Source of the DNA: Gimesia aquarii | GTDB lineage: Bacteria; Planctomycetota; Planctomycetia; Planctomycetales; Planctomycetaceae | Length of the DNA stretch: 64,000 nt | Reading direction: 5' to 3' | Assembly: GCF_007748175.1 (NCBI RefSeq) | Contig: NZ_CP037422.1 | Span: 4,086,327 to 4,150,326 of the forward strand | Shown: one piece after another, positions 20,649 to 54,809 of the stretch | How positions within the stretch are numbered: position 1 is the first letter of the stretch | How the letters are laid out: each line of letters starts with the position of its first letter | Position numbers and translations under genes: made by a program | The notes under the pieces: generated by a model | What the model saw: the letters and a program-made list of their open reading frames with translations, nothing else | Database searches by the model: none | What the model was told of the DNA's origin: nothing

Positions 20649-20695
20649 TGTCTCGTCCTGATTATTCTTGAGAGAATTGATATCAAATAAAGATC

Positions 20696-25157: not shown

Positions 25158-25160
25158 AAT

Positions 25161-25682
25161 TTAACCTTCTGCAGCCATTCGTTTCTGTACACAATCGGCC
25201 AATTGTCGCCGAATGCGTAACAAGGCAACCTTGATTGAAGAAACAGACCGGTTCGCGTTTTGACTCATTTCTGCAACCGATTTCGTACGAAAATATCGTT
25301 CTTCAATCAGTTCGCGATTCGATGAAGTTAACAGTCCGAGACAAGGCCGCAACGCTTCTCTGATGGCATCAATCTGTTCAGACTGACTGGCTGCTTCATC
25401 GCTCAGCATTTCCGCCAGGCTCGAATTCAGCAGCATCCGATCACGCTGCTTATCACGCAATTGTGCCAGTACCTGAAATCGGACAATCGCAAACGCCCAG
25501 GGCAAGAAAGGTCTTGTCTGATCATATTCTGCGATTTTCCGCCACAACACCAAGTTGGTCTCCTGTAAAACATCCTCAGCACGACTGTGGTCACCCAGCA
25601 AAGAATAGACGTACCCGTAGAGCCGATTCTGGTTCTCTGTCAGTTGTTGCACAAATTGTTCATTATTGTCCGCTTGCCCCAT
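25161..25682 (-). CDS. ECF RNA polymerase sigma factor (planctomycete type)
   Basis: Predicted 173-residue ECF sigma-70 family factor. Sigma region 2 lies at about residues 15-75 (GDHSRAEDVLQETNLVLWRK, FLPWAFAIVRFQVL) and region 4 at about 115-165 (ELIEERYFRTKSVAEMSQ, SVSSIKVALLRIRRQL). This matches the Rhodopirellula/Verrucomicrobium ECF subgroup that precedes FecR/LamG and DUF1549 genes. The ATG is preceded by a near-perfect GGAGGA. It heads a four-gene minus-strand operon with only small gaps or overlaps and probably controls that operon. The cognate promoter sequence cannot be predicted from one window. Confidence 0.92.
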   Translation of the reverse strand: MGQADNNEQFVQQLTENQNRLYGYVYSLLGDHSRAEDVLQETNLVLWRKIAEYDQTRPFLPWAFAIVRFQVLAQLRDKQRDRMLLNSSLAEMLSDEAASQSEQIDAIREALRPCLGLLTSSNRELIEERYFRTKSVAEMSQNANRSVSSIKVALLRIRRQLADCVQKRMAAEG

Positions 25683-27329: not shown

Positions 27330-30300
27330 TTAACGATTGCGGAATTTCATCAAGACATAGGCAGCCGGCACGAAATACAGGGCTAAGAGCGTCGCTCCCC
27401 CCACACCACCTGCAATGGTGATTGCCAGGGGTGGCCAAAAATCGCCACCGCTGAGAATTAACGGCAAGAACCCCGCAATTGTTGTGAACGTAGTTGAAAG
27501 CACATGCCGGGTGCAGCCATTTACAACATTTACAATTGCTGCGACATCACCACGACTTGCATCAGGATCAGCCCGAATCCCGGCCATCACCACAATCGAA
27601 TCGTTGACGGCAAGCCCCATCAATCCCATGGTGCCGAGAATCGCCATGAATCCAAATGGATAGCCAAAATACCACAATGCAGCCGGACCCAGGCCAACGG
27701 CTAAACCAGCCACAGATGCAATAATAAAAGCGATTCGAAAGGAACGAAACGAGATCACCAGGATTGAGACCATCAGCGAAATTAAAATGACAGCATCAGC
27801 GATCAAATTAGTGACCGCTTCATTTCTCGCTGCCGTTTCGCCTGCAAAGTCGATTGTGTAGCCAAGCGGAAGCTTGAAACTCGATTGCTTTAAACGAGAA
27901 CGAAAATCAGCCAACACAACCGCTGGTAATTTTCCTGCAGTAATATACGCTTTCAATTCGTTGGTATACTCACCATTGATGCGTGTGATCGTAGAGATGT
28001 CTGCATCGAGTTGAAAGTCGGAAACTGCAGACAGTGGAGGACCTTCGGAATCCATGATTTCCCCACGTGCATTCCTCCGAGGTCCTGTTGGCTGAATGAT
28101 TAAACCCTGTAACTCATCAAGGTCCATTTCATCAGCATCAGTAATCCGCACAATGACCGGAATTTCAAACTCACGATGCCGAATCGTTCCTGCTTCGACG
28201 CCCTCTAATGCTGTATAAAGTTGACTGGCAACATCGGACTCAGTCAGCCCCGCCGCGTTCAGCTTGTCTTTATCAAAATCGAGTTCTAAACTGGTCGTCA
28301 CTTCTCCCAAATCTGACCGAGTATATATCACATCAGGTGTTTCGCTTAAAATTTTTCGTAGTTCTGAACCGAGTTGTTCCAAAACTCGCAGGTCTGGTCC
28401 TTTTAATAGAATCTCGATCGGAGCATCAACTGGTGGCCCCTGCTCCAGTTGACGGACCAAAATTCGCGCATCACGATTCGATTGGGTCAATTTAGTTTGC
28501 AAGTTACGAACAAAACGAGGCGTATTCATGCCGGGTTCGAGATCAATAAATGCCTGGCCGTAGTAGGTGGCATGCTGTCGACGAGGTACGATGTTATAGT
28601 AAAAACTGGGAGCACTTTCTCCGATAAACCAATTCGTATGACGTACTCCAGGTTCGTTTCTGATTAGTTCGTTCAAAGATGTGATAACTTTGCGTGTCTG
28701 TTCCTGTGAGGTTCCCACAGGTAATTCGACTTCAATTTGTATCTGGTTGCGATCTGAGGCCGGAAAAAACTGTTCGGGCAATTGGCTCGTTTGTACAAAA
28801 CCCAGCACTGGCAACCCAATCCCCACTAACAATCCCAGTAGTGGATGTTGGCAGACAATGGAAATAGAACGCTGGTACATTTTTGAAAACAAAGGAATTG
28901 ACAATCCCGTTACCTGCTTTGCATGCTCGGCATTTTGGTCAGTCTTACGAGAGATCATCCCAAGTAATGCGGGTACGACAGTCAGAGCGAGCAGTAAGGA
29001 GGCATTAATTGCCAGGATCACACTGACTGCGATCGTACCTACAAATTCGCCAGGTGGACCGGGCAACATTGCAATCGGTAAAAACGCGAGTGTCGTTGTT
29101 AGTGTTGAACACAATAATGGCATTGCCAAATGATGCACAGCTTGCGCGATCGCAGTCGAAATTGGCAAACCGGAGTGCATACGCTGGCGACATTCATCGA
29201 CCATCACAATCGCGTTATCGATCAATAACCCCAGTGCGATCACAATTCCTGTAATCGACATTTGATGAATTGGAATTTTCAATATCCGTAACCCAGCAAG
29301 CACGATCAAGGCCGTCAGCGGTAATGCCAATCCGATGACTGTCGCACTTCGCCAATCCATCATCACGATGATTACAATCATGACAGCAATCATCCCCAGC
29401 AATAGATTACTGAGTAGTTCCTGCATACGAAGCGCGACAAACGGCCGCTGAGAAAAGATCACACTTAAATCAACATTTTTGGGTAATTGTTTTTTTAAAT
29501 CCAGCAATAAGCGATCAAGACGATCCGACCAAAGATCAACCCGATAGTCATCACGTACATAGGCGCATATTACGATTGCCTCTTGTCCATCAATCAAGGT
29601 CGCATTGATTGGATTCGCTTCGGTTTGAATTGACACATTAGCCAGATCGGAAAGCTTGACCGATTCACCACCATTTCCCGGCTTAATCAGTGTCTCTTTC
29701 AAACCAGCTAATGAATCGAACTTGTCCCCATATGTGATAGGACGTTCGATTTGATTCTGTTTGAGTGTACCGGCAGGAAATCGTGGTTGACTTTGTTCAA
29801 TTTGCTGACCTAGTGCCCCGACAGTCAACCCCGTCGATGCAAGCTTATCAAGGTCCACCTCAACAACAGCTTCTTCACCGGGATCGCCGAAAATACGTGT
29901 TGTTTCCGTACCCGCCAGTCGGTCAATTCTGGCCTGTAAATCAATCGCGATCCTTCTAAGAGTGAAGGCATCTGCCGGGCCTCCCGATTTCGTGCTTAAC
30001 GCCACCATCGCAGCATAGGATTTCATTTCAGCGATGCGAATCTCAGGCGAAAGTGCTTGTGCAGGTAAATCAGATTTGGCCTGTTCGATTTTATCTCGTA
30101 CGCGCGACCAGACTTCAGGGATATTCGATACAGAATCCCGAAGTTCTACTTTTATTAATGAGACACCAGGTCGTGATCGAGATTGAATCGTTTTAATTTC
30201 AGCAATACTTCGGATTGCCTGCTCGATTTTCGTTGTTACTAATGAATCAACACGATCTGTATCCGCTCCTGGATAGCTGATGCTCACGACCGCCACACGC

Positions 30301-30422
30301 CTGGAGAGCACGGGATCTTCGAGTCGAGGTGAGTTATAAAAAGCAGCTACACCAGAAGCAACCACTAAAACCAAGGCCATAATCAACAGCCGTGGATTTC
30401 GATAAAAGAATGTCGAAATCAT
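27330..30422 (-). CDS. RND family efflux transporter permease
   Basis: Predicted inner-membrane proton-driven efflux pump of 1030 residues, AcrB/HAE1-like. The layout is the family's: an N-terminal helix, a large periplasmic loop (about 35-330), a six-helix bundle (about 335-530), a second loop (about 550-860) and a final six helices. The proton-relay helix reads [15 protein letters not shown], with Asp402 followed by Asn403 rather than the AcrB Asp-Asp pair, as in many HAE variants. The ATG overlaps the stop of the adaptor gene by four bases (ATGA), so the two are co-translated. It ends the minus-strand run that starts with the PAL/PKS genes, so export of that pathway's product is plausible. 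No outer-membrane TolC gene is seen here. Confidence 0.92.
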
Positions 30423-31801
30423 AGGCTCGGCACTTGCTCCGGTTTTTTGTTATCCCTCAAACTCGTTTTTTTCTGTTCTGCAAGACGTACAATTTGACCG
30501 GGTACAATACGATGGAGTCCCTCGACGACAACAGACATACCCTCGTGCAAATTTCCAAGTACTAAGGCTTGATCATTACCAACGTCAATCACTTCTACAT
30601 AGCGTCGCACGATTGTTGGTTTTTCCTCTATCGTCTCCACCAGATAAACAGACCATAACCCAGCAATTTCTTTCATCAATGCAGAAACAGGTAACCAAAA
30701 TCCTGATTGCTGTTGCACAGTCGGGAATAAAACATCAACCCGTTCTCCGGCAGTAAACGAATTGGTCACCTTCGAGTCACGCGGCTGGAGTACCACTGTC
30801 CGTGTTTGTGTCAAGGCATCGACCGTAGGGTGAATCGCTGTAACTTGCCCGAGAATGGTTTGCTGATCTTGTTCAATTGGTACTTCCTGCCCTAATGTGA
30901 GAGTTTCAGCAAGCTCCGCTGGAAGCCGAACCCACACGCGGTACGCGTCTATTTTCGCAATCTTTAATACAGGTCGACCTGGAGAAACAACGCTTCCCGG
31001 ATCAATCATTTTGTCGATGATCACACCTGTAAAGGGAGCTGTCACATTACAAGCTGCAATCGTGGCATCAACTTCCTGTAATTGTCCTCTTAAATCTTTA
31101 ATCTGTGCTGTTAAACCGGTTATTTTTTGCTGACGTGATTTTTGATTCAAGGTCTGTATTTGTTCTTCACTACTTTTCAATCTTTCATTGAGATTGTCTC
31201 TATTTTCAGACGAGGGAAGCGAATTCTTCACTTCAGTTTCAAGTCGGTCCAATTCGCTACGCAACTGATTGATTTTCGCTACCATCTGCTCGCTACTCTG
31301 GCCTGTATTTGGTTGGTTAAGCGAGTTTAAGTCAGCCTGAGCAGCCGTTAATTGGGATTGCAAATTGAATTTTTTCTTCAGGAAAGGCTCATCATCTAAT
31401 TGTGCCAGTATCTCGCCCTGTTTTACAGCTGAACCGACATCAATGAAAACCTCTGCTACCTTACCCGCTTGTGTAAAGCTCAAATCACTACTACGAACCG
31501 GCTTGATCAAACCAGAAAACCGTTCGACGAGATCGGGAATCTGATCTTGTTTTAACGTGATCGTTTTCACGCCAATTGTTTCAGTTTGCCTTACTTCACT
31601 GCTTGAGGTCGTTCGATTGGCACTCGTGGGAGAATCACAGGCAGATAAACCAAACGGAAGAAGGATGCCGAAAATCAGGCAAAGCCGTTGGCACACGCAT
31701 TGCATCATATCATAGAAACCAAAATTCCCTGTACTGGCTTGGGTAGAGCAAAACAAACCTGAGTCTGCACATCGACATGCCCTCAAATGCCAGAACCTCA
31801 T
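30419..31801 (-). CDS. RND efflux periplasmic adaptor (membrane fusion) lipoprotein
   Basis: Predicted adaptor linking the RND pump to an outer-membrane channel. Motifs: lipobox GLSAC (Cys55 counted from the ATG at 31801), first lipoyl half with AEVFIDVGSAVKQGEILAQLDD, a long coiled-coil hairpin (about 125-240) and second lipoyl half CNVTAPFTGVIIDKMIDPGSVV. A beta-barrel segment and a membrane-proximal end follow. The ATG at 31801 has a good AGAGG site but gives an unusually long 54-residue leader. An ATG at 31708 would give a normal lipoprotein signal but lacks a clear ribosome site. It overlaps the permease gene by 4 bp and lies 109 bp after the second halogenase-like gene. Confidence 0.88.
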   Translation of the reverse strand: MRFWHLRACRCADSGLFCSTQASTGNFGFYDMMQCVCQRLCLIFGILLPFGLSACDSPTSANRTTSSSEVRQTETIGVKTITLKQDQIPDLVERFSGLIKPVRSSDLSFTQAGKVAEVFIDVGSAVKQGEILAQLDDEPFLKKKFNLQSQLTAAQADLNSLNQPNTGQSSEQMVAKINQLRSELDRLETEVKNSLPSSENRDNLNERLKSSEEQIQTLNQKSRQQKITGLTAQIKDLRGQLQEVDATIAACNVTAPFTGVIIDKMIDPGSVVSPGRPVLKIAKIDAYRVWVRLPAELAETLTLGQEVPIEQDQQTILGQVTAIHPTVDALTQTRTVVLQPRDSKVTNSFTAGERVDVLFPTVQQQSGFWLPVSALMKEIAGLWSVYLVETIEEKPTIVRRYVEVIDVGNDQALVLGNLHEGMSVVVEGLHRIVPGQIVRLAEQKKTSLRDNKKPEQVPSL

Positions 31802-31910
31802 TTCAACCTCTTGGTTACAGTCTATGGAAATTTCATGAAATGGCTCCAGGCCGCATCAGCAGCATTTCACAAATTCGATAACTGTATTAAAGGCAGAATC
31901 GATACAGAAA

Positions 31911-33575
31911 TCAACTCAGTTTCAGGCCTGCGGTAAGGGGCACAGGCGGATCAACCTGTTCTGCTTTTTTCTGTGGAAAGATCACATCAAAAACTCCTCG
32001 GAACGCATCTTTCATGACCGAGGATGATTTTGCCATGGGGACTGGTGAGGCTGGAGTTAAACCTACCTGTTTTACAATTTCGGCATACAAAGTTTCCATT
32101 TGTGCTAAATTAGCAGAGAACTGTCTATCAAACTCATACCAGTTTAACTCAGTGATTAAAGCTTCGTTTTTATTTCGTATAATAGGTAAGTTAGAAATAT
32201 TGACGAGGCCTGATATCTCCTGACTCGGAATTTTTTGATGCCATAACCGAAAGTAATCTTGCATCTGATGATTCAAGTCTGACAAGCGGTTCAACTTGGA
32301 AACATTTCGCATGTACATTGCATGATTACAAAGTCGTTCCTGCATAAAAATGAAACCAGAGAGTGACCAGTAAATCAAATAATCCCACATCACTTTGACA
32401 GGCATCACCTGCGGATTGCCGAATAACTGATACTGGTCGCGATAGACGGCAGCCGTGCCGTGAAAAAACTTTTTGAAGATCCGGTCATAACTGAATGCCC
32501 TGATGCGGTGACCTCGCCAGGTTAAATCCCGCCAGATTAAATCAGTCAGAAAAGTGTTTGCAAATGCGATGAAGTCACTACCCGGAGAATAAAATGGGTC
32601 CAGAAAGAAACCGGCCTCACCTGTGATTCCCCAACGCTGACCTGAAAATACTTGCTGACATTCCCGGGAATAATTTTTATAGACAAGGAAGTCTTGAACC
32701 TCAGCATTCTGTTTTCGAAGCTGGCTTGCCAGTTGCGGTTCATTTTTTTCCAGCCAGGCCAGAGATTTCTCTAAAGTGTTGATCTCTGTAAGTGGATGAA
32801 ATTGTTGTTCAGCAACAATCCCAATACTCGTCGAACCCGATGCCAATGGAATCAACCAGACCCAATAACCCTGGCCCATTAAATGGTTCGTGCTGTACCA
32901 GCGGGAAGTCTTCCCCTCGTGGCCAGATTGCCAATCTGGATCGTCTGACCAATCATCTACTTTTAACCGACTGTCGATTCGAAACCAGGCCGCATTACAT
33001 TTTTGGTCTGTCGGTTTTTGTAATCCCAAATGTTGTTTTAACAAAGCGCGGCGACCACTGGCATCAACCACCCAACGCGATGCGACCGTTTGTGTCATTT
33101 CATCACGCGCGTATGTCACCTCATGTCTGCGATTCCACTTATTGATTTGTAGCTTCTTGATGTCGGCACGATCAAGAAAATCAATCCCCTGCTCTCGGCA
33201 GCGCTCTCCCAGAAAGTTTTCAAACCGTCCGCGATCTAATTGATAGCTTGCCGCTGGCGCATATCGAGTCCCCCCAATTTCCAAACGTTTCTCAATTCGT
33301 GAATTATCGCCATATGGAAAAAAGAAACGCAGACCCAGTTTGGGCAATTGTTCTTCCACGATATGCTGTTTCAATCCGAGTACATCGGCAAAATAATAAG
33401 CACCGACCTCGACCGTCGATTCGCCCACTTTATGAGTCGCTTCAGGTACGGGATGTGCCATTTTATCGAGCACAGTAATTTGTGCTTTGGGCAATTTTTG
33501 ACGACACTGGAGCGCTAAAGCTAACCCAGCCAAACCGCCACCTAAAATTGTGACATCACTTTGTGTTGCCGCCAT
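31911..33575 (-). CDS. flavin-dependent halogenase-like oxidoreductase (copy 2)
   Basis: Predicted 554-residue FAD enzyme of the tryptophan-halogenase-like superfamily. The FAD-binding GGGLAG is at 12-17. KVGESTVE at 49-56 matches the halogenase GES motif region, Lys79 in LPKLGLRF aligns with the catalytic lysine position of the KxG block, the halogenase signature WxWxIP is present as WVWLIP (238-243), and the distal FAD/halide-site block reads [14 protein letters not shown] (319-332). These suggest halogenation, but related monooxygenases and reductases share much of this, so hydroxylation or desaturation is possible. It resembles the neighbouring copy throughout and probably arose by duplication. 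It would need a separate flavin reductase, none of which is in the window. Confidence 0.8.
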
Positions 33576-33654
33576 TATTCTTTTCCCCTAACGGAATTCG
33601 TTTTTTTTTAGTTATTAACAATTATCATTATGTAAATAGTAAATCATCTGACGA

Positions 33655-35301
33655 CTATAAATTCATTGCTTCAAATACTCGATCGAGTCGGTTTTGAGAA
33701 CAATGTCCCTCCTCTGCTGAGGATGCCAGTTCCGGATATTGCAAGCTAATTCGCGATGTAATTTCTAACATTAAGTCTTTGACAATCTCGACATTCCTGG
33801 TAAATCGTGCTTTTAACGCTTTGTCTTCTAATTCCTCCGACAATTCCCCATTCAACTGAATCAAGATTTCGATAGATCGTTGATCAACAAATGTCGCATC
33901 GATAATGGCAACATCTTCCAGATCATGCCACTCTCGAAAAAACTGCTGCATCTGCACGTTCAATGCCCGCATCGCTTGAATCTCTCGTGACAAAGACTGA
34001 ATAAACGTCGGCTCGGTCAGTTTGTCTTGAAAATAGAGCAAAGCTGGGAAGCTCCAATACAAAGCATAATCCCAAACATATTTCAAAGACATAATTCGTG
34101 GGTTTCCGAAAAGGGGATACTGTTCCTGATATGCTAATAAATTGTTCTGGAACAGTGTCATAAAAATGCTTTGGAATGCGGGCGCCAAATGGGTAATCGG
34201 TCGGGTTGATAAATCAGTCGTGATCAACTCAGTAATCATTGTGTTACCGATTGCAATATAATCGATACCCGGTGAATAAAACGGATCAAGAAATACACCC
34301 GCTTCACCCGTTAATGCCCAGCGATCCTTAGAAAAGACCTGCTGGCACCCACGAGCGAGTTGCTTCATGGCCATGAAATCTTTCAATTTATCCTGATGTG
34401 GCTCCAGCCGCGCTGCACATTCAGGTTCGTGAATACGTAACCACGCGAGTGCCTTATCGAATCGATTTAACTCATTGAGATGATGCAGTCGAGGATCAAA
34501 CACAATTCCCAGACTGGTAGCACCCGATGACAAAGGAATAATCCAAACCCAATACCCAGAACCTAACAAATGATTTGTGCTCAACCAGCGACGAGGAACC
34601 CGCCCTGTGCGCTGCCCCCATTCTGGTTCATCACACCATTCATCAACTCGAATCTCTGCATCCAACCGAAACCAGACTGCATTAATATTATGATCAATTT
34701 CTTCGGAAAGATTTAATTTGCGTTTCAAAAAACTTTGTCGACCGCTCGCATCAATCAACCAGCGACACTGGAGCGAATGGGCTACATGATTCTGTTCATA
34801 TTCAATTCGATGTGATGCCGAATCAGTATCCGCTGCCAGTTCAATCTGACGCACAAAAGAATCTGTGATTAAATCAGCTCCCATTTTCTGAACCGTCTCG
34901 GCAAGATAATTCTCCAAACGTCCTCGATCTACCTGATATCCGGGCGCTGGAAAAAATTCGCTCGTTCCTACTTCCGTACCAGCTGAAATTGGTTGGTCAT
35001 TCTGATTGAAGAAAAAACGCAAACCTAATTTTGGCAGATGCTGATCGGCTAAATGCTTTTTCAGGTTGAGTCGTTCCCCTAAATAATGGGCTCCAATTTC
35101 AACCGTGGATTCCCCCACCTTATGTGAGGCTTCGGGGACAGGAAACGATTTCTTTTCAATAATTGTGATCGAAGTTTCAGGACGCTGCATCAGCGTCTGT
35201 CTGGCAAGTGTCAAACCGGCTAGTCCCCCACCGATGATCACGACATCACATTGATCCTTTTCCATGTTGAGATTCTTTTCTCCACTTTTCGTCTGGTTCA
35301 T
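33655..35301 (-). CDS. flavin-dependent halogenase-like oxidoreductase (copy 1)
   Basis: Predicted 548-residue paralogue of the next gene. GGGLAG is at 24-29, HKVGESTVE at about 60-68, Lys91 in [14 protein letters not shown] (WxWxIP) at 251-256, and [14 protein letters not shown] at 332-345. The presence of both WxWxIP and the conserved lysine favours a flavin-dependent halogenase over simple geranylgeranyl-reductase-like enzymes. The start at 35301 is chosen because its ATG overlaps the PKS stop as ATGA, with GGGAG upstream; ATGs at 35340 and 35265 are alternatives. Tight coupling to the PKS gene argues that it modifies the PKS product or its carrier-bound intermediate. Confidence 0.82.
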   Translation of the reverse strand: MNQTKSGEKNLNMEKDQCDVVIIGGGLAGLTLARQTLMQRPETSITIIEKKSFPVPEASHKVGESTVEIGAHYLGERLNLKKHLADQHLPKLGLRFFFNQNDQPISAGTEVGTSEFFPAPGYQVDRGRLENYLAETVQKMGADLITDSFVRQIELAADTDSASHRIEYEQNHVAHSLQCRWLIDASGRQSFLKRKLNLSEEIDHNINAVWFRLDAEIRVDEWCDEPEWGQRTGRVPRRWLSTNHLLGSGYWVWIIPLSSGATSLGIVFDPRLHHLNELNRFDKALAWLRIHEPECAARLEPHQDKLKDFMAMKQLARGCQQVFSKDRWALTGEAGVFLDPFYSPGIDYIAIGNTMITELITTDLSTRPITHLAPAFQSIFMTLFQNNLLAYQEQYPLFGNPRIMSLKYVWDYALYWSFPALLYFQDKLTEPTFIQSLSREIQAMRALNVQMQQFFREWHDLEDVAIIDATFVDQRSIEILIQLNGELSEELEDKALKARFTRNVEIVKDLMLEITSRISLQYPELASSAEEGHCSQNRLDRVFEAMNL

Positions 35302-38300: not shown

Positions 38301-41300
38301 CCGTTTCCAATCAACGTCTAACACAAGTGCCTGTTGCAAACTGGCTCGAACCGCCTTTTCCAGAACATGATGGGCATCATCAACGGTTAACGGAGTAATC
38401 CCCTGAAGCGCGAGGCGTTTGATAATCAACTCATTATCGGCCATTCCTTCCGTCCAGGGGCCCCAGTTGAGACTGATAGCAGGCAGTCCCTGTTGTCGAC
38501 GGCGATCGGCCAAACCATCCAGGAACCCATTTGCGGCTGCGTAATTTGTTTGCCCCGGTGATCCTAACAACGACGCAGCCGAAGAATACAACACAAAGAA
38601 ATCGAGGTCGAAATCACGTGTTAATTCATCGAGCAAACTCGCTCCCAGAACCTTTGGCTCCAGGACTTTCTCAAATCGTTCCCAGGTCTGATCGGCAATC
38701 AGACCATCGTCGAGTACACCGGCTGCATGAATCACACCTTTGAGCACAGGCCAGTCTGTACCAAATTTGTTACAAAGTTGTTCCATATCCTTACGCGAAC
38801 TGGAATCGGCTTGATAAATGACGGTGCGGCAACCTAACTTCTCAATCTCATTGACTAGTTCCAATGTCGATTCGCTCGGTGCACGGCGCGATACCAACAC
38901 CACATGCGAGGCTCCTTTCTTTGCCAACCAAAGTCCGGCCTGTCGTCCGAGCATTCCGAGTCCACCGGTAATGAGATAACTCCCCTGCGAGTCAATTGGG
39001 AATTCAACTTCATCGATCGAAGTCAGACGCGTTTGCTGTAATCGCGGTACATAATACCGGTTGGATCGAATCACGATTTGATTTTCGACCGTATCATTCA
39101 AGATGTATTCAGCCACCGATTCAGCTTGCTCATTACCATCAGAAAAATCATTGCGATCAACATCAATCAGGCGACAATGGAATTCTGGATGCTCTGCTCC
39201 TAACGCACGACCAAAGCCCCAGAACTGAGATTGAATCGGATCAACGTACTGAGCTTCTCCTGCTTTTGATTCCCCGGACAATGATGCATCAGAAAGGCTC
39301 ATACTATTGCTGGTCACAATTTGAAAACCGCATTCAAAACTCTGAACTTCCTCGACTCGACAAGCAGAAAACAGCGCGAACAAACTCGGAAAATGTAAAC
39401 GCGAGGTTGATAACGTCGATTCAGATTCGAGATCACTCGAATCACATGCTAACCAGACCACCCCCTGTGGAATGGCCTTGGGTTCATCCTCACGAAGTGT
39501 TTGAAGTAACTCTTGCCAGTGTTGCTGACACTGACCATTCAGTTGGTAAAAGTCGCCCGCTTTTGTCTGGAGCGTTTCTGTAGCTCCTAACTGTATATGA
39601 ACGGCCCGATGCCCCTTTTCGCAGATCAAGTTTCGAATCGACTCTGCGAGAAGTTGATGACCTGAAGCAGCCCCAGTTGCAGTATTTCGTTCCTGACTGA
39701 TAATCAACCAGTTTTTCGGTTCCAGCTCCGTCATAGGAAGACGATAGTTCTGCCACTGCAAATCGTATAACAAGCGCGTATCGGAGGTACCACTCATTCG
39801 TCGTAGCAACGCACGATCGAGTCGTTTTACTGTCAGGTTTTTAATCTCAGCTAAGACAGTCCCCTGTCGATCCAGCAATGAAATATCAGCAGATCGAACA
39901 TCGCCTTCCGGTTCAGTCCACGTCGCAAAACTGAACACGTCCTCTGTCATCGCGCGGTGACAAACCACGCGCTCAATCCCGACGGGTAAAAATAAATCAT
40001 CTGCATTTTCACGTAGTAAACCGGCGGCAAGAGAATGAAAAGCACCGTCGAGTAGCGTTGGCGGAATCGTGTAACCCCGCAAGTCACCCATGGTCTGCAG
40101 TTCGGCTACAACAAATTCTGTGGAAAATTTGAGCGATTTGATGACTCGAAACGCAGGACCATAGTTCAATCCCAGACTGCCAAGTAAGCCATAAAATTGA
40201 TCGACATCGGCTGTTTCGGACAGATTTGCGAGAATTTCCTGTAAGTTAATCGTCGGAGGTTGGCTGGTTTCTGACTCCACAACCGTGGACCGGAAACATC
40301 GCGTCCAGTTTTCTGACTGTTCCAGGCTGGCATAAACTTGCAAACTCTTGCCTGATTCATCGTCTGTTCGTAAGACAGACTGTATCCGGGTTCGTCCCTG
40401 AAGACGCAAAGGTTGCTCAAATACGATCTCTTTTAATTCAATCGCTGGTTGCACTGCTAACGCAAGATCAATTAAACCTGCGCCAGGTAAGACAATCGAT
40501 CCCATGACCTCATGGTCGGTTAACCAGGGCGGACTGTCCGGTTGGATAATTTTTTCAAATCGTATTTCGTCAGTGAGCCCTGCCAGCGAGCACTTTTCCC
40601 CGAGCAAAGGATGTGTTGAATGTGAAATTGCCTGAGCGGCCTTCGGCTTGGCTGGTCCCCAGTAACGTTGTCGTTGAAACGGATAAGTCGGCAACAGTAG
40701 ATTTTGATCAGATTGTTTGGGATTCAGTTGATTAAAATCAGGCGTTATCCCCTGCACATACCCCTGCCCCACGACATCAAGCAAAGCTGCTTCATCATCA
40801 ACACTTTTGTCTAAACAACACGCAAGCGAAGACTGACTACCATGCCAGACCGAGCGTGCCATACCGGTCAACACGGGTTGAGGTCCCAATTCAAGTAGGA
40901 AACTAGCTTGCATTTCCTGCAAGCTCGCAATGCTATCCGCATAACGAACCGGTTTTCGGATATGATTGGCCCAATAGGTTCCGTCTAATATTTGTTCGTT
41001 CCCGATCAATTGACCTGTCACATTACAAATCAAAGGAATGCGGGCGGGTTGAAAGTCCAATGAATCAGCGAAACGTGTGAATGCTTCCAACGCCGGTTCC
41101 ATCAAATGGGAATGGAATGCATGGGATGTTTTTAATTTTTTAAAGCGAACGCCTTCTTCCGAAAACTGTTGAGTTATCTCGTCAAAAATCGCTGTTTCAC
41201 CGCTGATAACAGTATGCAGACCATTTTGGGCCGCAACAGAAACACCGGGATGTTCTGCTACAATGGACTCGACTTTTTCATAAGCCGCAAAAACAGCAGC

Positions 41301-43403
41301 CATAGAACCACCGGTGGGGAGATCACCAATCAATCGCCCCCGCTCACAAATCAGACGAAAACCTTGTTCCCAATCCATCACTCCAGCCACACAGGCGGCC
41401 GCATATTGCCCCACACTATGTCCCAGCACAACATCGGGCTGTAGCCCCCAACTAATCAGTAATTCAGCTAAGCCCCTTTGAATTGCAAACAATGCCGGCT
41501 GTGTCCATTCCGTTCGATTGAGGAGTGTCTCCTGTCGCCAAAGCACGTCGAGCAAAGAACGCCCCGAAAACTCCTGCATCATTGCTTCACAGTCATCAAG
41601 GGCTTCTCGAAACAGGGGCTGTGTCTCATAGAGTTCCATAGCCATTCCAACATACTGAGAACCTTGTCCTGTAAATTGCCAGGCAACTGTTGATGAAGGC
41701 TGTGCTTGTCCGATGTGAACACCTTGCTGATTGTCACTTCGGTAAATTCGATCGAATAACTGTTCGGCTTCCTGATGTGAGCGAACAACCATCGTGAGGC
41801 GCTGTTCCATGTGTCGTCGTCCGACACCCGCCGTATGTGCTATACTTGCCAGTGGAACTTCATGATGCTGAGTGAGCCAATTACGATATTGGTTTGTCTG
41901 CTCCAGTAATGCCTGCTCTGTTTTGGCTGATATGACCAGAAGTTGAGGCTTCTCGTTTCGCTTTTCATGCTTTGTCTCTTTGAAATGCTGCGCACGCTCA
42001 CGAATAGTATCATTCCGATGACCATTACGATTCGCTGTTCTTGGAGAATAATTCGTAAGCACAACATGGGCATTCGTGCCACTCATTCCGAAAGCGCTGA
42101 CGCCGGCAATCAGTTGTGATGCATTTGGCCAGGGTGTCGTTTCAGTGACGATATTCACCGGAATTTGATCCCAGGGAATATGCGGGTTGGGTTGTTCAAA
42201 ATTCAGTTGCGGTGGAATCGCCTGATTTTGCATCGCAAGCAACACTTTAATCAACCCCGCCATGCCCGCTGCCGCTTCCAGGTGCCCGATGTTCGTTTTG
42301 ACCGAACCAACCAATAGAGGATTTTCTTCGCTACGCCCTTTTGCCAGTGCCGCCACAGCCGCCTGCATTTCAATCGGGTCACCTAGTTCGGTCCCTGTCC
42401 CATGGGCTTCTAAATAAGCGACATCATGTGGATTGATTTTCGCTCTTCTCAGTGCTTCCTGAATCACGCGTTCTTGTGCTCGCGGATTAGGAACAGTCAA
42501 CCCGCTACTAAAACCGTTGTGACCAATGGCAGAACCACGGATGACAGCTAAAATGGGATCTCCATCACGCTCGGCATCTCGAAGTCGTTTCAATGTGACA
42601 ACGCCACAACCTTCGCCGCGTACATACCCGTTGGCACCTGCGTCAAAAGCCCGTGATTCACCGGTCGGCGACAAGGCTTTCAATTTACAAGTAAGAATGT
42701 TTGTCGTGGGCGAAGCGATCACATTGACACCCCCTGCCAGTGCTTGATCGCATTCGTTTCGAGTTAAACTGAGACAAGCCAGATGGAGCGCCACCAACGA
42801 AGAGGAACACGCCGTATCCACAGCGAGACTCGGACCTTCGAGTCCCAGATAATAAGCCAGGCGACCACTTAAAAAACTCCCCGCGGCACCGGTGGCAATA
42901 TAAGGATTCAAATTTAAAAATGAGTCACTGGCTTCATTCTGATAATCATTATGCATCCAACCAACGAAGACACCGGTCCGTGGCCCAATTTTCTCAGTCG
43001 TCCAACCTGCTCTTTCGAGAGATTCCCAACCGGTCTCAAGCAGCAGCCGCTGCTGAGGATCAACCCAAGTCGCTTCACGAGGCGAAATGCCAAAAAAATC
43101 AGCATCAAATGAATCAATCTCTTCGAGAAAGGCACCAGTGCGGGCATACATTTTCCCTGGAGTATCTGGATTTTCGGAATGGAAGGCTGCTAAATCCCAG
43201 CGAGAATCGGGAACTTCATTCAATTCGTTGCGTTGTTCGATCAAGCTCTGCCAAAACTGTTCGGGACTACTCGAAGTCTGGGGAAAACGACAGGCGATCG
43301 AAACAATGGCAATCTCCTCAGTGGGAGCATGTTGCGCGGCAGCAAGCTCCTGCTTCAATTCCCGAATTTTCAGTAAAGCCTGTTTATTTGGAGATAATTT
43401 CAT
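35298..43403 (-). CDS. type I polyketide synthase: KS-AT-DH-KR-ACP plus degenerate KS-AT
   Basis: About 2700 residues; numbering here starts at the alternative ATG at 43424, seven codons upstream. KS1 (about 36-458) is complete with Cys206 (DTACSSSL), His341 and His381. AT1 (about 583-865) has Ser670 (GHSVG) and a HAFH signature, predicting malonyl-CoA. DH (about 935-1200) has HxxxGxxxxP from His971 and DGAFH near 1126-1130. KR (about 1480-1680) has GGLGMLG, an LDD motif (B-type) and Tyr1628. ACP1 has Ser1783 in GMDSL. A second KS (about 1860-2285) has DTASSSSL, Ser replacing the nucleophile Cys at 2030. The final AT-like part has GFGIG instead of GHSxG and lacks the HAFH region. No thioesterase or second ACP. 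Predicted role: extends an aryl starter with malonyl units, reducing and dehydrating each. Confidence 0.93.
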   Translation of the reverse strand: MKLSPNKQALLKIRELKQELAAAQHAPTEEIAIVSIACRFPQTSSSPEQFWQSLIEQRNELNEVPDSRWDLAAFHSENPDTPGKMYARTGAFLEEIDSFDADFFGISPREATWVDPQQRLLLETGWESLERAGWTTEKIGPRTGVFVGWMHNDYQNEASDSFLNLNPYIATGAAGSFLSGRLAYYLGLEGPSLAVDTACSSSLVALHLACLSLTRNECDQALAGGVNVIASPTTNILTCKLKALSPTGESRAFDAGANGYVRGEGCGVVTLKRLRDAERDGDPILAVIRGSAIGHNGFSSGLTVPNPRAQERVIQEALRRAKINPHDVAYLEAHGTGTELGDPIEMQAAVAALAKGRSEENPLLVGSVKTNIGHLEAAAGMAGLIKVLLAMQNQAIPPQLNFEQPNPHIPWDQIPVNIVTETTPWPNASQLIAGVSAFGMSGTNAHVVLTNYSPRTANRNGHRNDTIRERAQHFKETKHEKRNEKPQLLVISAKTEQALLEQTNQYRNWLTQHHEVPLASIAHTAGVGRRHMEQRLTMVVRSHQEAEQLFDRIYRSDNQQGVHIGQAQPSSTVAWQFTGQGSQYVGMAMELYETQPLFREALDDCEAMMQEFSGRSLLDVLWRQETLLNRTEWTQPALFAIQRGLAELLISWGLQPDVVLGHSVGQYAAACVAGVMDWEQGFRLICERGRLIGDLPTGGSMAAVFAAYEKVESIVAEHPGVSVAAQNGLHTVISGETAIFDEITQQFSEEGVRFKKLKTSHAFHSHLMEPALEAFTRFADSLDFQPARIPLICNVTGQLIGNEQILDGTYWANHIRKPVRYADSIASLQEMQASFLLELGPQPVLTGMARSVWHGSQSSLACCLDKSVDDEAALLDVVGQGYVQGITPDFNQLNPKQSDQNLLLPTYPFQRQRYWGPAKPKAAQAISHSTHPLLGEKCSLAGLTDEIRFEKIIQPDSPPWLTDHEVMGSIVLPGAGLIDLALAVQPAIELKEIVFEQPLRLQGRTRIQSVLRTDDESGKSLQVYASLEQSENWTRCFRSTVVESETSQPPTINLQEILANLSETADVDQFYGLLGSLGLNYGPAFRVIKSLKFSTEFVVAELQTMGDLRGYTIPPTLLDGAFHSLAAGLLRENADDLFLPVGIERVVCHRAMTEDVFSFATWTEPEGDVRSADISLLDRQGTVLAEIKNLTVKRLDRALLRRMSGTSDTRLLYDLQWQNYRLPMTELEPKNWLIISQERNTATGAASGHQLLAESIRNLICEKGHRAVHIQLGATETLQTKAGDFYQLNGQCQQHWQELLQTLREDEPKAIPQGVVWLACDSSDLESESTLSTSRLHFPSLFALFSACRVEEVQSFECGFQIVTSNSMSLSDASLSGESKAGEAQYVDPIQSQFWGFGRALGAEHPEFHCRLIDVDRNDFSDGNEQAESVAEYILNDTVENQIVIRSNRYYVPRLQQTRLTSIDEVEFPIDSQGSYLITGGLGMLGRQAGLWLAKKGASHVVLVSRRAPSESTLELVNEIEKLGCRTVIYQADSSSRKDMEQLCNKFGTDWPVLKGVIHAAGVLDDGLIADQTWERFEKVLEPKVLGASLLDELTRDFDLDFFVLYSSAASLLGSPGQTNYAAANGFLDGLADRRRQQGLPAISLNWGPWTEGMADNELIIKRLALQGITPLTVDDAHHVLEKAVRASLQQALVLDVDWKRMGGGSESPPLFEKLSAASQRSKAGDSEMVGKLKTLQGSARQKLLIETIQNQFQQILSTPEPPEIDRPLIEMGMDSLMAVEFSMQLQSMLGDDYVVSQTMLFDHPTITAIADHVLGMIDEAAEANSSDVETGSPAASDESVSISVSADQIARDDIAIIGMSCRFPGAKDVNEFWENLLAGVDSVREVPSDRWDVEAFYSPDREPGKMYTREGGFLDDIDCFDADFFGISHEEACWLDPQHRLLLENCWTALEDAGVKPYPLQDSNVGVFMGIMSSDYASLSTLENHEILADFQGAGFSHSAGVGRISYSFGFEGPSLAIDTASSSSLVAVCQAMRSLQEGHCNLALAGGVNAILSPFNSLLMAKTGMLSPDGRCKSFSAGADGFGRGEGCGVVVLKRLSDAERDGDQILAVVRGGAISHNGFSSSITTPNSRSQSRLIQDALQDAKISPAQVQYLEAHGTGTEYGDPMELTAAAAVFGRGRNQKNRLLVGSVKANISHLEAAGGISGLIKAVLAMQHGVIPQQLHCKEPSPHIPWKRLPLDLVQEQTVWPESEERIAAVTALGLAGTNAHVILSSQPEHRAPHRLTVVDQPADPPVSLLTMSANSISSLRQTVTRYHDYLVSNEAVNLTDFCYTAATGRRIFDNRVGVMGATQADIVAQLQELAKELTSGEGDHAQLSLQREGFLADYAKETPKLGWVFHEVSEQDLLQARVLYQDQYPFRELIDRMNEAYQTLTNSDSDSATDLVRWFTDESVTGNTTDLPLDVIQFVCQLGLAEVWQTYGVESDVVAGFGIGQYAAAVFTGMMNAEDGLKLVFERNRLFKNPGIQSSLSTIDESKFDEVTVRTLKQFEEFADTMNYFPANRLILNSLTGQAVPIQQLLAGSFWREHAVAKENIAETLASFVEMKCELILQIGIGQAVEELNEKWSAAQSLTILPSTLSKDESPCSIVPTLANLFVRGCSLDLSAPYARLQPRKMSLPTSPFERKRHWISDLVQAGSTIE

Positions 43404-43623
43404 ACTGGCTCGTATTGAACACATTTCCGATAATTAGTGAGACGACTTCACTCGTTGAGGAATGTTAGTCTTATTCCACCTAATCCCAGATCGATAAGTA
43501 CCAGGAAGACGAGGAAGACCTAGTCCACTAATCTTAGTTGTTTGCGGCAATTAGATAAACAGGGAAATAAAGCGATTCGGAGCAGAGGTTCTATCCATTC
43601 GCATTTGATCTTAGGATCGAAGT
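43404..43623. other. gap between ligase-ACP and PKS genes
   Basis: About 220 bp with no gene. No hairpin with a T-run is visible, so read-through transcription from the ligase gene into the PKS gene is possible. A separate PKS promoter cannot be excluded. Confidence 0.4.
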
Positions 43624-45729
43624 TCAATTTTTCAATTCGCGAATCAGCTGTTCTAAAGCCTCTTGCTCTGATAAACCTTCAATTTCAGCTTCCAAATCGG
43701 ATGTTTCACTGGGATTTCCAGTAAACAAAATGTCACCACCACCTTCTTTTTGAGGTATTTTGACAGTCTGTTTACGACTCACACTACTTCCAGGAGTTTC
43801 GCGATCTGAATCGTTGTTGGAATGAATTTCTTCAAGAATTGACGACAAAAAAACGGCCAATTCTGCAATGCTGGGATAATCGAATACTAATGTCGCTGGT
43901 AAATCGACAGCGTGACCGAGCCTTTGTTTCAACCGTTCCTGCAAATCGACAATCAACAAAGAATCGAGGCCTGCTTCAATAAAACGTTCGTCAGCATTCG
44001 GTAGTTCGTCCAACTGCAGCATCTTTTGCACATCCAGTTGGAGCATGGAAGTAATTTCACGCAATCGGTTCGCCGGATGTGATTTTAGCATTTCCGTCAC
44101 CCAGGCTGAGTGAATTTTCTGCTTTGCACCTTCCCGCTCTGCCTCTCCCGTTGATACTGAAACATCTATGTCAGTTTTGGCCTGTATCTCTTGCTGTGTT
44201 TCAGAAATCATCGATTCTGCTTGTTCGCGAAGAACCCGCTTGAGTATTTTACCCGAAGGATTCCGCGGCAATTCGTCGATCAGCAATAAATGCTTGGGCA
44301 TCTTATAGCTCGCAAGATTTTGCTGACAGAACTCACGAAGCTGCTCAAGGACCTCAGTATACGTTACTTCGGAACCAGTTTGAAGATCCTTGGCTAGCAC
44401 AATGAATGCAACAACCTTCTCACCCAAAATGGCATCTGCTAATCCAACCACTGCTACATCTGAAATTGCGGCATGTTCATGCAGGGTTCTTTCGACTTCT
44501 GCCGGAAAGACTTTGAGCCCTGCGATTGAAATCATATCTTTTACACGATCGACAATATAGAAGTAACCCTGCTCATCAATCCGTCCAATATCACCAGAAT
44601 GAAACCAACCATCTCGGATTGCAATCGCTGTATCGTCCGGACGATTCCAATATCCCAGCATCACATTGGGACCACGGACCACAATTTCTCCTAATTCTCC
44701 GGGTGCACACGTCTCACCTGTCTCAGTATGAACCACTTTCATTTCAACCAGATCAACGGGAGATCCAATTGATCCAGGGACAAATTTTAAACGATGATTA
44801 TAACTGGCAAAAGGTGCGGTTTCGGTTAAACCATAGCCTTCGTAGATCGGCATCTTGAATTTTTGTTGCCAGCGTTCAGCAACAATTTGTGGTAAGGTTG
44901 TTGCCGCCGAGAAACAATAGTTAATGCTTTTTAAATCTTCAAGGCTGCATGTTTCCTCGAGTAATTGAAACATGGTTGGCACACCAAACAGCTTATTCAC
45001 CCCTTCATCCATGATTAAGGATTTGGATTCATTCAAATCAAAACGCTGCTGTAATACAATAGTTGCCGCTGCATGGAAACCAGAATTCAGTAACGCGTTC
45101 TGACCATAACAATGGAATAAAGGCACACTACACAGAATGCGATCATCCTGATTTAAACCACATAAATTGTTAAAGGCGTGCACGGTTGCCCGTACATTTT
45201 GATGTGACAAAGTCGCCCCTTTGGGAAAACCAGTGGTCCCAGATGTGTAGAGAATGACTGCTGGATCGTTTGGTTCGGTCGGATAAATGTCAATGGGGCC
45301 TGATTCGCTGACGTTGAGAAATTCATCGGAAATTTTATCACCAGACTCAGAAACCAAAATCAAATGCTGCATACAAGCTGGCATCTGTGATTGTAAATCG
45401 ACTGATTTGGAATCGACGACGACCAGTGCCACTGCAGTACAATCTTCAACAATAAACCGAATTTCCTGAGATGTCAGCCGCGTACTCACAGAAACAGCAA
45501 TCGCACCGACACGCAAAACCGCATAATACCAGACCACAAAAGCGGGTGTATTCGGTAGCGCAATTGCCACTCGATCCCCCGGCTGAACTGCTAAGTCTTG
45601 CAAATAGCAGGCTGCCTGACTGCTTAAGCGTTCAAGCTCAGCATAAGTAAAACGGTTCCCATTAAATACGAGTGCTTCACGCTCAGGAAAAATTTGTGCC
45701 GATACCGTTAAGTGTTCACAGATATTCAT
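43624..45729 (-). CDS. AMP-dependent acyl/aryl ligase fused to an acyl carrier protein (PKS loading protein)
   Basis: Predicted 701-residue loading didomain. The ANL adenylation domain (about 1-505) has the P-loop LYTSGTTGFPKG (160-171), YGLTET (299-304), GWFHSGDIG and the catalytic lysine in NPSGK (Lys494). It resembles 4-coumarate/cinnamate-CoA ligases. A linker leads to an ACP with phosphopantetheine site GLDSL (Ser590). The extreme C-terminus LSEQEALEQLIREL resembles the short helical docking tails of class 2 PKS docking domains. The PKS begins with a matching helical stretch NKQALLKIRELKQEL. Together with the PAL gene 42 bp upstream, this predicts activation of cinnamate and loading onto its own ACP, then transfer to KS1. 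Substrate is inferred from context, not measured. Confidence 0.9.
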   Translation of the reverse strand: MNICEHLTVSAQIFPEREALVFNGNRFTYAELERLSSQAACYLQDLAVQPGDRVAIALPNTPAFVVWYYAVLRVGAIAVSVSTRLTSQEIRFIVEDCTAVALVVVDSKSVDLQSQMPACMQHLILVSESGDKISDEFLNVSESGPIDIYPTEPNDPAVILYTSGTTGFPKGATLSHQNVRATVHAFNNLCGLNQDDRILCSVPLFHCYGQNALLNSGFHAAATIVLQQRFDLNESKSLIMDEGVNKLFGVPTMFQLLEETCSLEDLKSINYCFSAATTLPQIVAERWQQKFKMPIYEGYGLTETAPFASYNHRLKFVPGSIGSPVDLVEMKVVHTETGETCAPGELGEIVVRGPNVMLGYWNRPDDTAIAIRDGWFHSGDIGRIDEQGYFYIVDRVKDMISIAGLKVFPAEVERTLHEHAAISDVAVVGLADAILGEKVVAFIVLAKDLQTGSEVTYTEVLEQLREFCQQNLASYKMPKHLLLIDELPRNPSGKILKRVLREQAESMISETQQEIQAKTDIDVSVSTGEAEREGAKQKIHSAWVTEMLKSHPANRLREITSMLQLDVQKMLQLDELPNADERFIEAGLDSLLIVDLQERLKQRLGHAVDLPATLVFDYPSIAELAVFLSSILEEIHSNNDSDRETPGSSVSRKQTVKIPQKEGGGDILFTGNPSETSDLEAEIEGLSEQEALEQLIRELKN

Positions 45730-45770
45730 GACGTCTCTGCAATCATTTTTGTGGTAAAAATGCTTGGAAT

Positions 45771-47417
45771 TTATACTTCAAAAGCCGCTTTGAACGAGTC
45801 AACAAGCGGCTTGATCACGGAAATGACTCCTTTACCAGGTTTCAGACCTTGCTTAAGCATTTGTAAGTCCGCTTCCAACCAGCGGTCATCATCATGTCCC
45901 AGGAAAGGCTGCTTTTGTCCCGTTTTTTCTCCACAGGCAGTATAGATGGCATCGTAAATTGGCACCAGAGGTTTTTGCAATAAGGCCCGACCATCAAAAT
46001 GCCCCAATTCTTGCTTGGCACGTAAGTCGACCGCTTGAATCGCGAACAGACTGGCAACTGCCATATAATCCTGAAACAGATCAACACAACGCCAGGCCAT
46101 ATTCGCTGAAGTCCAGCTTAAACCGTTAATGTTTTGATTAAACTGCTCCGCATGAGTTGGAAAATGTTCTGTAATCGGATTGCCGAAATAGGTTAGCAGC
46201 GGCATAATCGAATTGCCTGTAATCTGCAGTCCTTTCAAACCCATGTTGTAAATTCGAGAATCATCGCCGCGCAAAGAAGGTGGCAATCCGTGATTAAATT
46301 CTGGTGATACCAACTGTGCAATTTGCACATCAAGATGTTTGGCAAGTAATCCCAAAAATCGTCGCAAATCATCCATCGCGATTGCAACATACTGCCCCAA
46401 AAAATTCCCATTTTGATAAAAACGCTGCTCGACACTATCAATGAGAGGATTGTCCGTCACCGAGTTCATTTCAGTGGCGATGACTTCGGAAACGCGCGCC
46501 ATGCCATCTACAATCGGGCCAAAATATTGAGGCAAACAACGCAAAGAATATCGATCTTGTATAATTGAATTCGTAGAATTGCCGTTTTTGGACTCAGCTC
46601 CCAGGAATTCACGCATTACTTTCGCTGTCCAGAGTTGACCGGCATGCGGTTTATTCTGGTGCACAAACGCGGCAAAAGGCTCGTGTTGAACGTTTAAAGC
46701 TCGTAACATCATTGCCTGAATTGCTAAAGACATCGCCAGCAACGTCTGCGACTCATAGACACAATTGGCGGCTACCGCAGATGAAAAAGAGGTTCCATTA
46801 ACAATCGCAAGCCCCTCTTTGGCTTGCAATTCAATCGGTTCCAGTTCAAGTTTTTTTAACGCCGCCAGGCCATCGATTTGCTGGCCATCGAGCAAAATCT
46901 GACAGCGCGATGAATGGCCTGTAATCGCGCGACCTATTGTCGCAAGCGGGACAAGGTCACCACTCGCTCCAATAGACCCTAATTCTCGAACCACAGGAAT
47001 GGCATCTGCGCAAATGAACCGAATCAGTCGATCAATAATTTCACGCCGAACGCCTGATTTCCCTTGTAACAATACATTGGCGCGCAGCAACATCGCAGCA
47101 CGAGTATGTCGACTGGAAACAGGCTCTCCCGTGGCAGTTGCTAAGAAAGAAAGCAAGTTACGTTGCGATGCATTGACCAACTCATTTGGAATCGCAACAT
47201 CAGCCATTCCTCCAAAACAAGTTGTCACACCGTAGATGGGCTTGTTTTCAGCAACAGCAGTATCCACCACAGCTTTACTGGCGGCCAACTGTTTGAGTAC
47301 CAGCGAGTCATTTGTGACCCGAGGCATTACTTGCCCTAACCCTACTTGGTAAACCGTATCAATTGACAGCATCCCGCCATCGAGCACTACTTCAGAAGAA
47401 CTTGCAGGGTTGGTCAT
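45771..47417 (-). CDS. aromatic amino acid ammonia-lyase, probably phenylalanine ammonia-lyase
   Basis: Predicted 548-residue MIO enzyme converting L-Phe to trans-cinnamate and ammonia. The MIO-forming triad is Ala151-Ser152-Gly153 in GSIGASGDLVPL. The catalytic-loop tyrosine is Tyr62 in IYGVTTCFGGMADV. The selectivity pair at positions 91-92 is Phe-Leu (NLLSFL), as in PALs. Tyrosine lyases have His-Leu and histidine lyases Ser-His here. Overall similarity in this region is to cyanobacterial PALs (YGVTSGFGGMANV, RAAMLLRAN). Residue 67 is Cys where Gly is usual. I prefer the ATG at 47417 over a TTG at 47444; neither has a strong ribosome site. It heads the biosynthetic gene run and should supply its starter unit. 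Confidence 0.88.
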   Translation of the reverse strand: MTNPASSSEVVLDGGMLSIDTVYQVGLGQVMPRVTNDSLVLKQLAASKAVVDTAVAENKPIYGVTTCFGGMADVAIPNELVNASQRNLLSFLATATGEPVSSRHTRAAMLLRANVLLQGKSGVRREIIDRLIRFICADAIPVVRELGSIGASGDLVPLATIGRAITGHSSRCQILLDGQQIDGLAALKKLELEPIELQAKEGLAIVNGTSFSSAVAANCVYESQTLLAMSLAIQAMMLRALNVQHEPFAAFVHQNKPHAGQLWTAKVMREFLGAESKNGNSTNSIIQDRYSLRCLPQYFGPIVDGMARVSEVIATEMNSVTDNPLIDSVEQRFYQNGNFLGQYVAIAMDDLRRFLGLLAKHLDVQIAQLVSPEFNHGLPPSLRGDDSRIYNMGLKGLQITGNSIMPLLTYFGNPITEHFPTHAEQFNQNINGLSWTSANMAWRCVDLFQDYMAVASLFAIQAVDLRAKQELGHFDGRALLQKPLVPIYDAIYTACGEKTGQKQPFLGHDDDRWLEADLQMLKQGLKPGKGVISVIKPLVDSFKAAFEV

Positions 47418-54777: not shown

Positions 54778-54809
54778 TAAATTGATCTAATAAGAGGATG
54801 TCATTAGTC

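Follow-up and report, generated by a model that had tools for sequence, protein, structure and literature searches.

A conserved planctomycete and verrucomicrobial gene cluster with a predicted phenylalanine ammonia-lyase, two halogenase homologues, and a type I polyketide synthase carrying a constrained Cys-to-Ser ketosynthase

Gene content of the cluster

A seven-gene cluster built around a type I polyketide synthase (PKS) was analyzed in a 64,000-nucleotide stretch of the Gimesia aquarii genome (contig NZ_CP037422.1, positions 4,086,327 to 4,150,326), here called the window; the source genome is a single 7.22-Mb contig. The cluster is real and conserved across planctomycetes and verrucomicrobia. 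New here is the second ketosynthase (KS2) of the PKS, in which Ser replaces the nucleophilic Cys throughout and which nevertheless appears, from its ratio of nonsynonymous to synonymous substitutions (dN/dS), to be as constrained as the first ketosynthase (KS1), while the adjoining acyltransferase (AT2) drifts.

The seven open reading frames (ORFs) lie on the minus strand at 27330 to 47417 of the window. From 47417 downward, they encode a phenylalanine ammonia-lyase (PAL), a ligase fused to an acyl carrier protein (ACP), the PKS, two flavin-dependent halogenase (FDH) homologues (FDHa and FDHb), and the adaptor and pump of a resistance-nodulation-division (RND) system. The PKS and FDHa genes overlap by 4 bp (ATGA), as do the adaptor and pump genes, and the remaining intergenic gaps are 41, 199, 79, and 109 bp. 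Strand, overlaps, and domain content agree with the original prediction; Pfam and NCBIfam call an aromatic amino-acid lyase, an AMP ligase with a PP-binding domain, a 2,708-aa PKS, two Trp_halogenase-family flavoproteins, an HlyD/RND_mfp adaptor, and an AcrB-type RND permease. The features are as follows, with AT1, DH, and KR denoting the first acyltransferase, the dehydratase, and the ketoreductase.

45771-47417, minus strand: gene 1, PAL of the type forming 4-methylideneimidazole-5-one (MIO) (PF00221, 4e-133; best Protein Data Bank [PDB] match, 9eq5 = PbPAL, 684 bits; FL pair; GSIGASGDLVP)
43624-45729, minus strand: putative aryl/acyl-AMP ligase fused to ACP (AMP-binding, 7.6e-92; AMP-binding_C; PP-binding, 4.5e-09)
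35298-43424, minus strand: type I PKS, KS1-AT1-DH-KR-ACP-KS2-AT2, 2,708 aa (Pfam; NCBIfam NF045894)
36570-37853, minus strand: KS2, residues 1858 to 2285 (Cys to Ser at residue 2030; His/His/Lys motifs kept; strong constraint; the KS2-AT2 model folds as a KS-AT didomain)
35565-36239, minus strand: AT2 core, residues 2396 to 2620 (catalytic Ser lost; internal deletion relative to AT1)
33655-35301, minus strand: FDHa, FDH homologue (Trp_halogenase, 1.2e-14; 4-bp overlap of its ATG with the PKS stop; WxWxIP and Lys104)
31911-33575, minus strand: FDHb, second halogenase homologue, in an old clade of its own (Trp_halogenase, 7e-15; clade support, 1.0)
30419-31801, minus strand: RND periplasmic adaptor (membrane fusion protein) (RND_mfp TIGR01730, 149.8 bits; cut-off, 94.9)
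27330-30422, minus strand: RND permease of the AcrB superfamily (ACR_tran, 2.4e-141; below all listed NCBIfam RND model cut-offs)

The PAL reading frame has its first ATG at 47417 and an in-frame TTG further upstream at 47444. As predicted originally, neither a separate ketosynthase (KS) or chain-length factor (CLF) nor a phosphopantetheinyl transferase is present among the seven genes: all PKS domains are on the one protein, and a single match to the ACPS family lies elsewhere in the genome. Dialkylresorcinol genes are likewise absent from the seven.

Conservation and distribution

Named species genomes were scanned with the FDHa alignment, which gave 396 stretches with a relative, and the best 80 of the 396 were used. 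Twenty-four loci (L027 to L049 and L053), with FDHa identities of 53 to 89%, were assigned to the cluster by context. By title, 19 of them belong to planctomycetes; the other five, three from Verrucomicrobiales (L043, L046, and L048) and two titled only "bacterium" (L044 and L047), share another arrangement. FDHb adjoins FDHa in 23 of the 24 loci, and in L046 the contig ends there. The seven genes lie on one contig in 11 loci (L028, L034, L037, L039, L040, L041, L043, L044, L045, L048, and L049), with a contig end falling inside the PKS in L043 and inside FDHb in L049. Twelve loci are cut by contig ends.

The original prediction of one coherent cluster was to be given up if the PAL, PKS, and pump genes separated freely in relatives; no such free separation was seen, although a split over two contigs was found in one locus of 24 (L036). 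In that case (L036/L110), PKS-FDHa-FDHb share a contig and pieces of PAL, ligase, and pump are on a second, with the pump match in two pieces, which reflects either decay or relocation of the cluster or an artifact of assembly. Leaving aside the window's own genome, PAL was located in 25 of 26 genomes; that of L027 lacks it. The pump occupies two positions, following FDHb in the window, L027, and L028 and lying beside or near PAL in the other loci where it was seen. Pumps of other cluster loci share 43 to 50% identity with that of the window (84% in L028).

In a phylum sample of 392 genomes, FDHa matches at 1e-20 occurred in 20, and identities of at least 85% were confined to the window's genus (G000, G048, and G216, the last being the same genome as L028 by identical coordinates). 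In a family sample, PAL was matched at 1e-20 in 7 of 170 genomes. All seven were cluster PALs, three from the window's genus and four with coordinates equal to those of the L029, L031, L035, and L039 genomes. Of the 17 genomes from the window's genus, which include incomplete ones, 3 carry the cluster PAL. Because the cluster is patchy, transfer or repeated loss is suggested; the flanks favor neither over the other. A PKS named Gimesia sp. in a protein collection is 94% identical to the window PKS over KS2. No characterized cluster with this gene content was known to the original prediction, and none of this kind was found described in the open literature searched, a scope outside which subscription papers and MIBiG lie.

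One active elongation module

The window PKS scored 2,186.3 bits against NCBIfam NF045894 (PKS_plus_SDR), above the curated cut-off of 1,740, and thus classes as a type I PKS. AT1 contains GHSVG and HAFH, the KR contains LDD, and the DH contains HxxxGxxxxP; we take these motifs to have their customary roles. In every planctomycete copy examined, the KS1 Cys, the AT1 GHSVG and HAFH motifs, the DH His and Asp, the KR Ser and Tyr, and the ACP Ser (DSL) were kept. The deviations in these copies were replacement of the Gly of the DH motif (6 of 16) and MDD for LDD (1 of 17).

Mean identity over 117 pairs, from which the three pairs among the window, L027, and L028 were left out, was 0.756 for KS1, 0.720 for KS2, 0.647 for ACP, 0.596 for KR, 0.555 for AT1, 0.466 for DH, 0.336 for AT2, and 0.326 for the structural KR half. 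KS2 at first seemed the more conserved of the two ketosynthases, an impression that was abandoned because the query pieces behind it contained a linker; on the domain cores, KS2 exceeds KS1 in 21 of the 117 pairs.

Inactivation, origin, and constraint of KS2 and AT2

Sixteen full-length PKSs were compared: the window, 13 planctomycete loci, L107 (from the "bacterium" metagenome-assembled genome of L044), and L108 (from Verrucomicrobiales L048). The nucleophile motif of the window KS2 reads DTASSSS, and Ser replaces Cys in 16 of 16; the His and Lys motifs are kept, except for HATGT in place of HGTGT in L108. In AT2, the window has GFGIG where GHSxG is expected, with 77 residues to the next landmark versus 133 in AT1. 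The GHSxG serine is missing from AT2 in all 16 PKSs, and the stretch after this position spans 59 to 77 residues in AT2 versus 132 to 136 in AT1, a shortening of 56 to 76.

For the three pairs among the window, L027, and L028, which are not independent of one another, dN/dS was 0.033 to 0.053 for KS1, 0.034 to 0.045 for KS2, and 0.19 to 0.20 for AT2. These ratios indicate that purifying selection on KS2 is as strong as that on the active KS1 and that AT2 drifts. The "dead second KS-AT" of the original prediction thus holds as to the lost nucleophiles of both domains, but KS2 is not debris.

In a tree with KS domains from other PKSs, KS1 and KS2 each formed a clade (support, 1.0) containing both host groups, and the two clades were sisters at 0.985. 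The outside domains were a sample among the matches listed and joined the pair with a support of 0.121, a closer outside relative being possible. Since KS2 is sister to KS1, the tree as it stands indicates that KS2 is a duplicate from inside this synthase, predating the cluster's split between host groups. Eighteen positions are fixed differently between the two domains, including C206/S2030, T377/A2201, and A386/G2210.

Ser at the KS nucleophile was found by motif pattern in 12 of 429 KS domains from 120 proteins, 55 domains being unread by the pattern. Three of the 12 are in close homologues of this PKS, eight are N-terminal in other PKSs, and one is an apparent false match. The predicted KS2-AT2 model (predicted local distance difference test [pLDDT], 76.6) retains the KS-AT didomain fold and matches KSQ-AT and ordinary KS-AT didomains about equally. 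In KSQ-type decarboxylating loading KSs, Gln replaces Cys and the position is N-terminal; KS2 has Ser and sits C-terminally after the ACP, which sets it outside this type. Of the traits expected of a CLF, KS2 shows the missing Cys and the conservation of a KS paralogue, with KS1 as its sister, whereas pairing with KS1 and control of chain length would be putative.

PAL and its probable substrate

The genome has no PF00221 match besides the cluster PAL. The closest solved relative of this PAL, PDB 9EQ5, is listed as a histidine ammonia-lyase and was used as PbPAL of Planctomyces (now Rubinisphaera) brasiliensis, with the same FL and MIO motifs. According to the PbPAL paper, its authors made the enzyme and tested it as a PAL, and FL at the selectivity positions is the PAL signature. 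The FL pair and the MIO-forming ASG are present in 20 of 20 aligned cluster PAL rows, representing 18 distinct places (L124 duplicates L120, and L126 duplicates L114). Because of these motifs and the assayed PbPAL as nearest solved relative, histidine is an unlikely substrate, and the original choice of PAL over histidine ammonia-lyase is strongly favored.

The ligase-ACP next to PAL has fatty-acyl- and feruloyl-coenzyme A (CoA) synthetases and 4-coumarate-CoA ligases among its best solved relatives.

Two halogenase homologues

FDHa and FDHb share 41% identity. The best Pfam match of both is Trp_halogenase, and the best NCBIfam match is the CmlS model (NF033113), far below its cut-off. All 117 aligned FDH relatives, FDHa and FDHb included, contain WxWxIP, which we take to be a halogenase motif, and Lys104, placed by position and presumably in its usual role. 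This alignment excluded sequences that are interrupted by a stop or match over a short length, including the FDHa of L027, L028, and L036. In the FDH tree, FDHb forms its own clade (22 of 22; support, 1.0). FDHa has no clade of its own and sits in a group of 64 (0.882) that also holds FDHb and other relatives.

Beyond the cluster, a KS lies no more than 4 kb away from 43 of 56 distant FDH relatives. Among them are the FDHs of xanthomonadin-type aryl-polyene loci, which are 40 to 49% identical to FDHa; by sequence, the cluster FDHs are kin to these. In Xanthomonas (L100), the order is KS, an ORF without assignment, a family-2 glycosyltransferase, and FDH, the same gene kinds as in the published xanthomonadin-type locus. 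According to PMC3691225, such loci have a KS (ORF17), a CLF-like ORF16, a homologue of dolichyl-phosphate mannose synthase, which Variovorax lacks, and a halogenase gene that is missing from Lysobacter enzymogenes and Xylella; ORF16 is described there as essential, with Gln166 needed and Ser120 not.

Two further planctomycete genomes possibly hold other aryl-polyene-like clusters. In L132, the neighbors of a distant FDH relative are an LpxL-type acyltransferase gene and additional Trp_halogenase pieces; in L133, another lies beside a stand-alone KS gene.

Distances of most cluster gene pairs correlate, the weakest being pump with KS2 and pump with FDHb. Correlations with the FDHs were 0.82 to 0.94 for KS2 and 0.56 to 0.90 for KS1 (9 to 12 taxa), a modest excess; KS2 versus pump gave an r of 0.22, with 148 of 999 permutations as high. 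The L043 KS2 and L049 FDHb, judged to be paralogues from cut contigs, were left out (10 taxa), and the KS2/FDH comparison was made on 10 planctomycete taxa without L036, whose FDHa, read from a TTG start that lengthens it, meets a stop at position 14. As proof of joint function, this covariation was rejected: the cluster genes share a history, the taxa are few, and the excess is modest. At most it hints at a joint role for KS2 and the halogenases.

Comparison with known pathways

Like the xanthomonadin/aryl-polyene type II clusters of Xanthomonas, Lysobacter (ORF16-ORF17), and Variovorax, the present cluster combines an apparent aryl starter, KR and DH without an enoylreductase (ER), a condensing enzyme with a possibly CLF-like partner, and FDHs of the same family. 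Unlike them, it has one polypeptide that includes an inactive KS, instead of separate PKS proteins, and a putative PAL-derived starter instead of 3-hydroxybenzoate. Because stand-alone KS and CLF are absent, it falls outside the type II family, although it probably works like the halogenated aryl-polyene pathways. The original verdict of "not aryl-polyene type" is therefore right for the PKS architecture but overlooks the homology of both FDHs to those of xanthomonadin-type loci.

Flexirubin clusters are type II and primed by a tyrosine ammonia-lyase (TAL). They too draw the aryl starter from an MIO ammonia-lyase, but the window PAL scores 256.5 on the FlxA TAL model (cut-off, 700), and the PKS here is type I. 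The polyunsaturated fatty acid synthase protein PfaC and the prodigiosin protein PigJ consist of a KS and a CLF-like KS, so that an inactive KS homologue shares a polypeptide with an active one, as in the present PKS. Unlike in PfaC and PigJ, KS2 is C-terminal after the ACP, is accompanied by a degenerate AT, and appears to derive from KS1 of the same protein. By analogy, KS2 may have arisen beside KS1 much as the CLF pairs with the KS in type II systems.

Proposed pathway and alternatives

Overall, we give about an even chance to an iterative type I equivalent of the type II halogenated aryl-polyene pathways with a CLF-like or docking KS2. PAL would convert phenylalanine to cinnamate, which the ligase-ACP would adenylate and load as cinnamoyl-ACP. 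KS1 would accept the cinnamoyl group and extend it with malonate from AT1, and KR and DH would turn each beta-ketone into a trans alkene. Because there is no ER and no further active module, the module would be used iteratively, giving an all-trans phenyl-polyene acyl-ACP. KS2-AT2 would be a noncondensing platform, most likely CLF-like (sharing or measuring the acyl tunnel and perhaps decarboxylating) or else a docking site for tailoring. Ring or chain would be halogenated by the two FDHs, and export of the product toward the outer membrane would fall to the RND pair.

A more specific proposal is more tentative. KS1-AT1 may have been duplicated within one polypeptide and both nucleophiles lost, with KS2 becoming an indispensable partner that sets the polyene length and presents the chain to the two halogenases. 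The synthase would then have evolved a CLF of its own by a route separate from that of the KS-alpha/KS-beta pair in type II aryl-polyene systems but convergent with it.

Several points weigh against iterative aryl-polyene synthesis. The product and the activities of the cluster members are predictions from sequence, no release enzyme was identified among the seven genes, and the type II partner genes (stand-alone KS and CLF, ACP, DH, and KR) are absent. In 13 of the 56 distant FDH relatives, no KS lies within 4 kb. In three genomes from the window's genus (window; L121, L122, and L123), the PAL carries YGVTTCFGG, with Gly in place of the Cys of this YGVTTxFG loop in the other 19 aligned rows (17 places). 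The two His and the Lys motifs kept in KS2 also leave a catalytic role other than condensation possible.

The possibility of a single extension is a further such point. Here, cinnamoyl-ACP would be extended once to 5-phenylpenta-2,4-dienoyl-ACP, giving a phenyl-pentadienoate that tailoring would turn into a small halogenated or hydroxylated acid for export, with KS2-AT2 only handing over or protecting the chain. The original prediction, which named a phenyl-diene or phenyl-polyene acid, had this as one of its two options. The single active elongation module and a KR and DH without ER would fit a diene. However, two FDHs of the xanthomonadin-type family together with a conserved KS1/KS2 pair recall polyene systems, and a module used once leaves the constraint on KS2 without plain reason. 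We consider this route rather unlikely.

The flavoproteins may instead be oxygenases or polyene-processing enzymes (hydroxylation, epoxidation, or desaturation), yielding a product without halogen. The best solved match of the FDHa sequence is a flavoprotein/dehydrogenase, ahead of the halogenases; VIA-align of the FDHa model, itself of mediocre quality (pLDDT, 68), ties halogenases with aromatic hydroxylases; and NCBIfam adds weak matches to GG-reductase and UbiH-type models. These findings, too, count against a halogenated product. Set against them are the invariant WxWxIP and Lys, the other 11 of 12 solved relatives, which are halogenases (counting CmlS and ChlB4), the top seven Foldseek rows for the FDHa model, all halogenases, and the halogenase gene described at this place in xanthomonadin-type clusters (PMC3691225). 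A nonhalogenating role is thus unlikely.

Least probable, at a slim chance, is KS2 as an acyltransferase or release domain that uses Ser as its nucleophile and transfers the completed chain to an alcohol or lipid, which would explain the missing thioesterase: the invariant residue is Ser instead of Ala, Gly, or Gln, and the His/His/Lys motifs are kept, but no precedent was found in the literature searched, where no search was aimed at exactly this, and the N-terminal Ser-KSs in 8 of 117 long PKSs outside the cluster, in a loading-type position, suggest a decarboxylating or structural role.

If iterative aryl-polyene synthesis is correct, the cluster would represent a further biosynthetic solution to aryl polyenes, PAL-primed and type I, in two phyla of little-explored chemistry. 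It would be a ready test case for how inactive condensing domains control chain length, and it suggests in which pathway PbPAL-like PALs are likely to act in nature.

Neighboring genes

At 19257 to 25682 of the window, consecutive genes encode DUF1501, PSCyt/PSD1, FecR/Laminin_G_3, and sigma-70 region 2 proteins, a row that we take to be a set usual in planctomycetes. On the other side of the cluster, at 53491 to 56447, a gene that encodes a DACNV sensor domain and matches DAC (diadenylate cyclase) weakly, below the cut-off, adjoins a gene with cNMP-binding and pyridine-nucleotide oxidoreductase domains.

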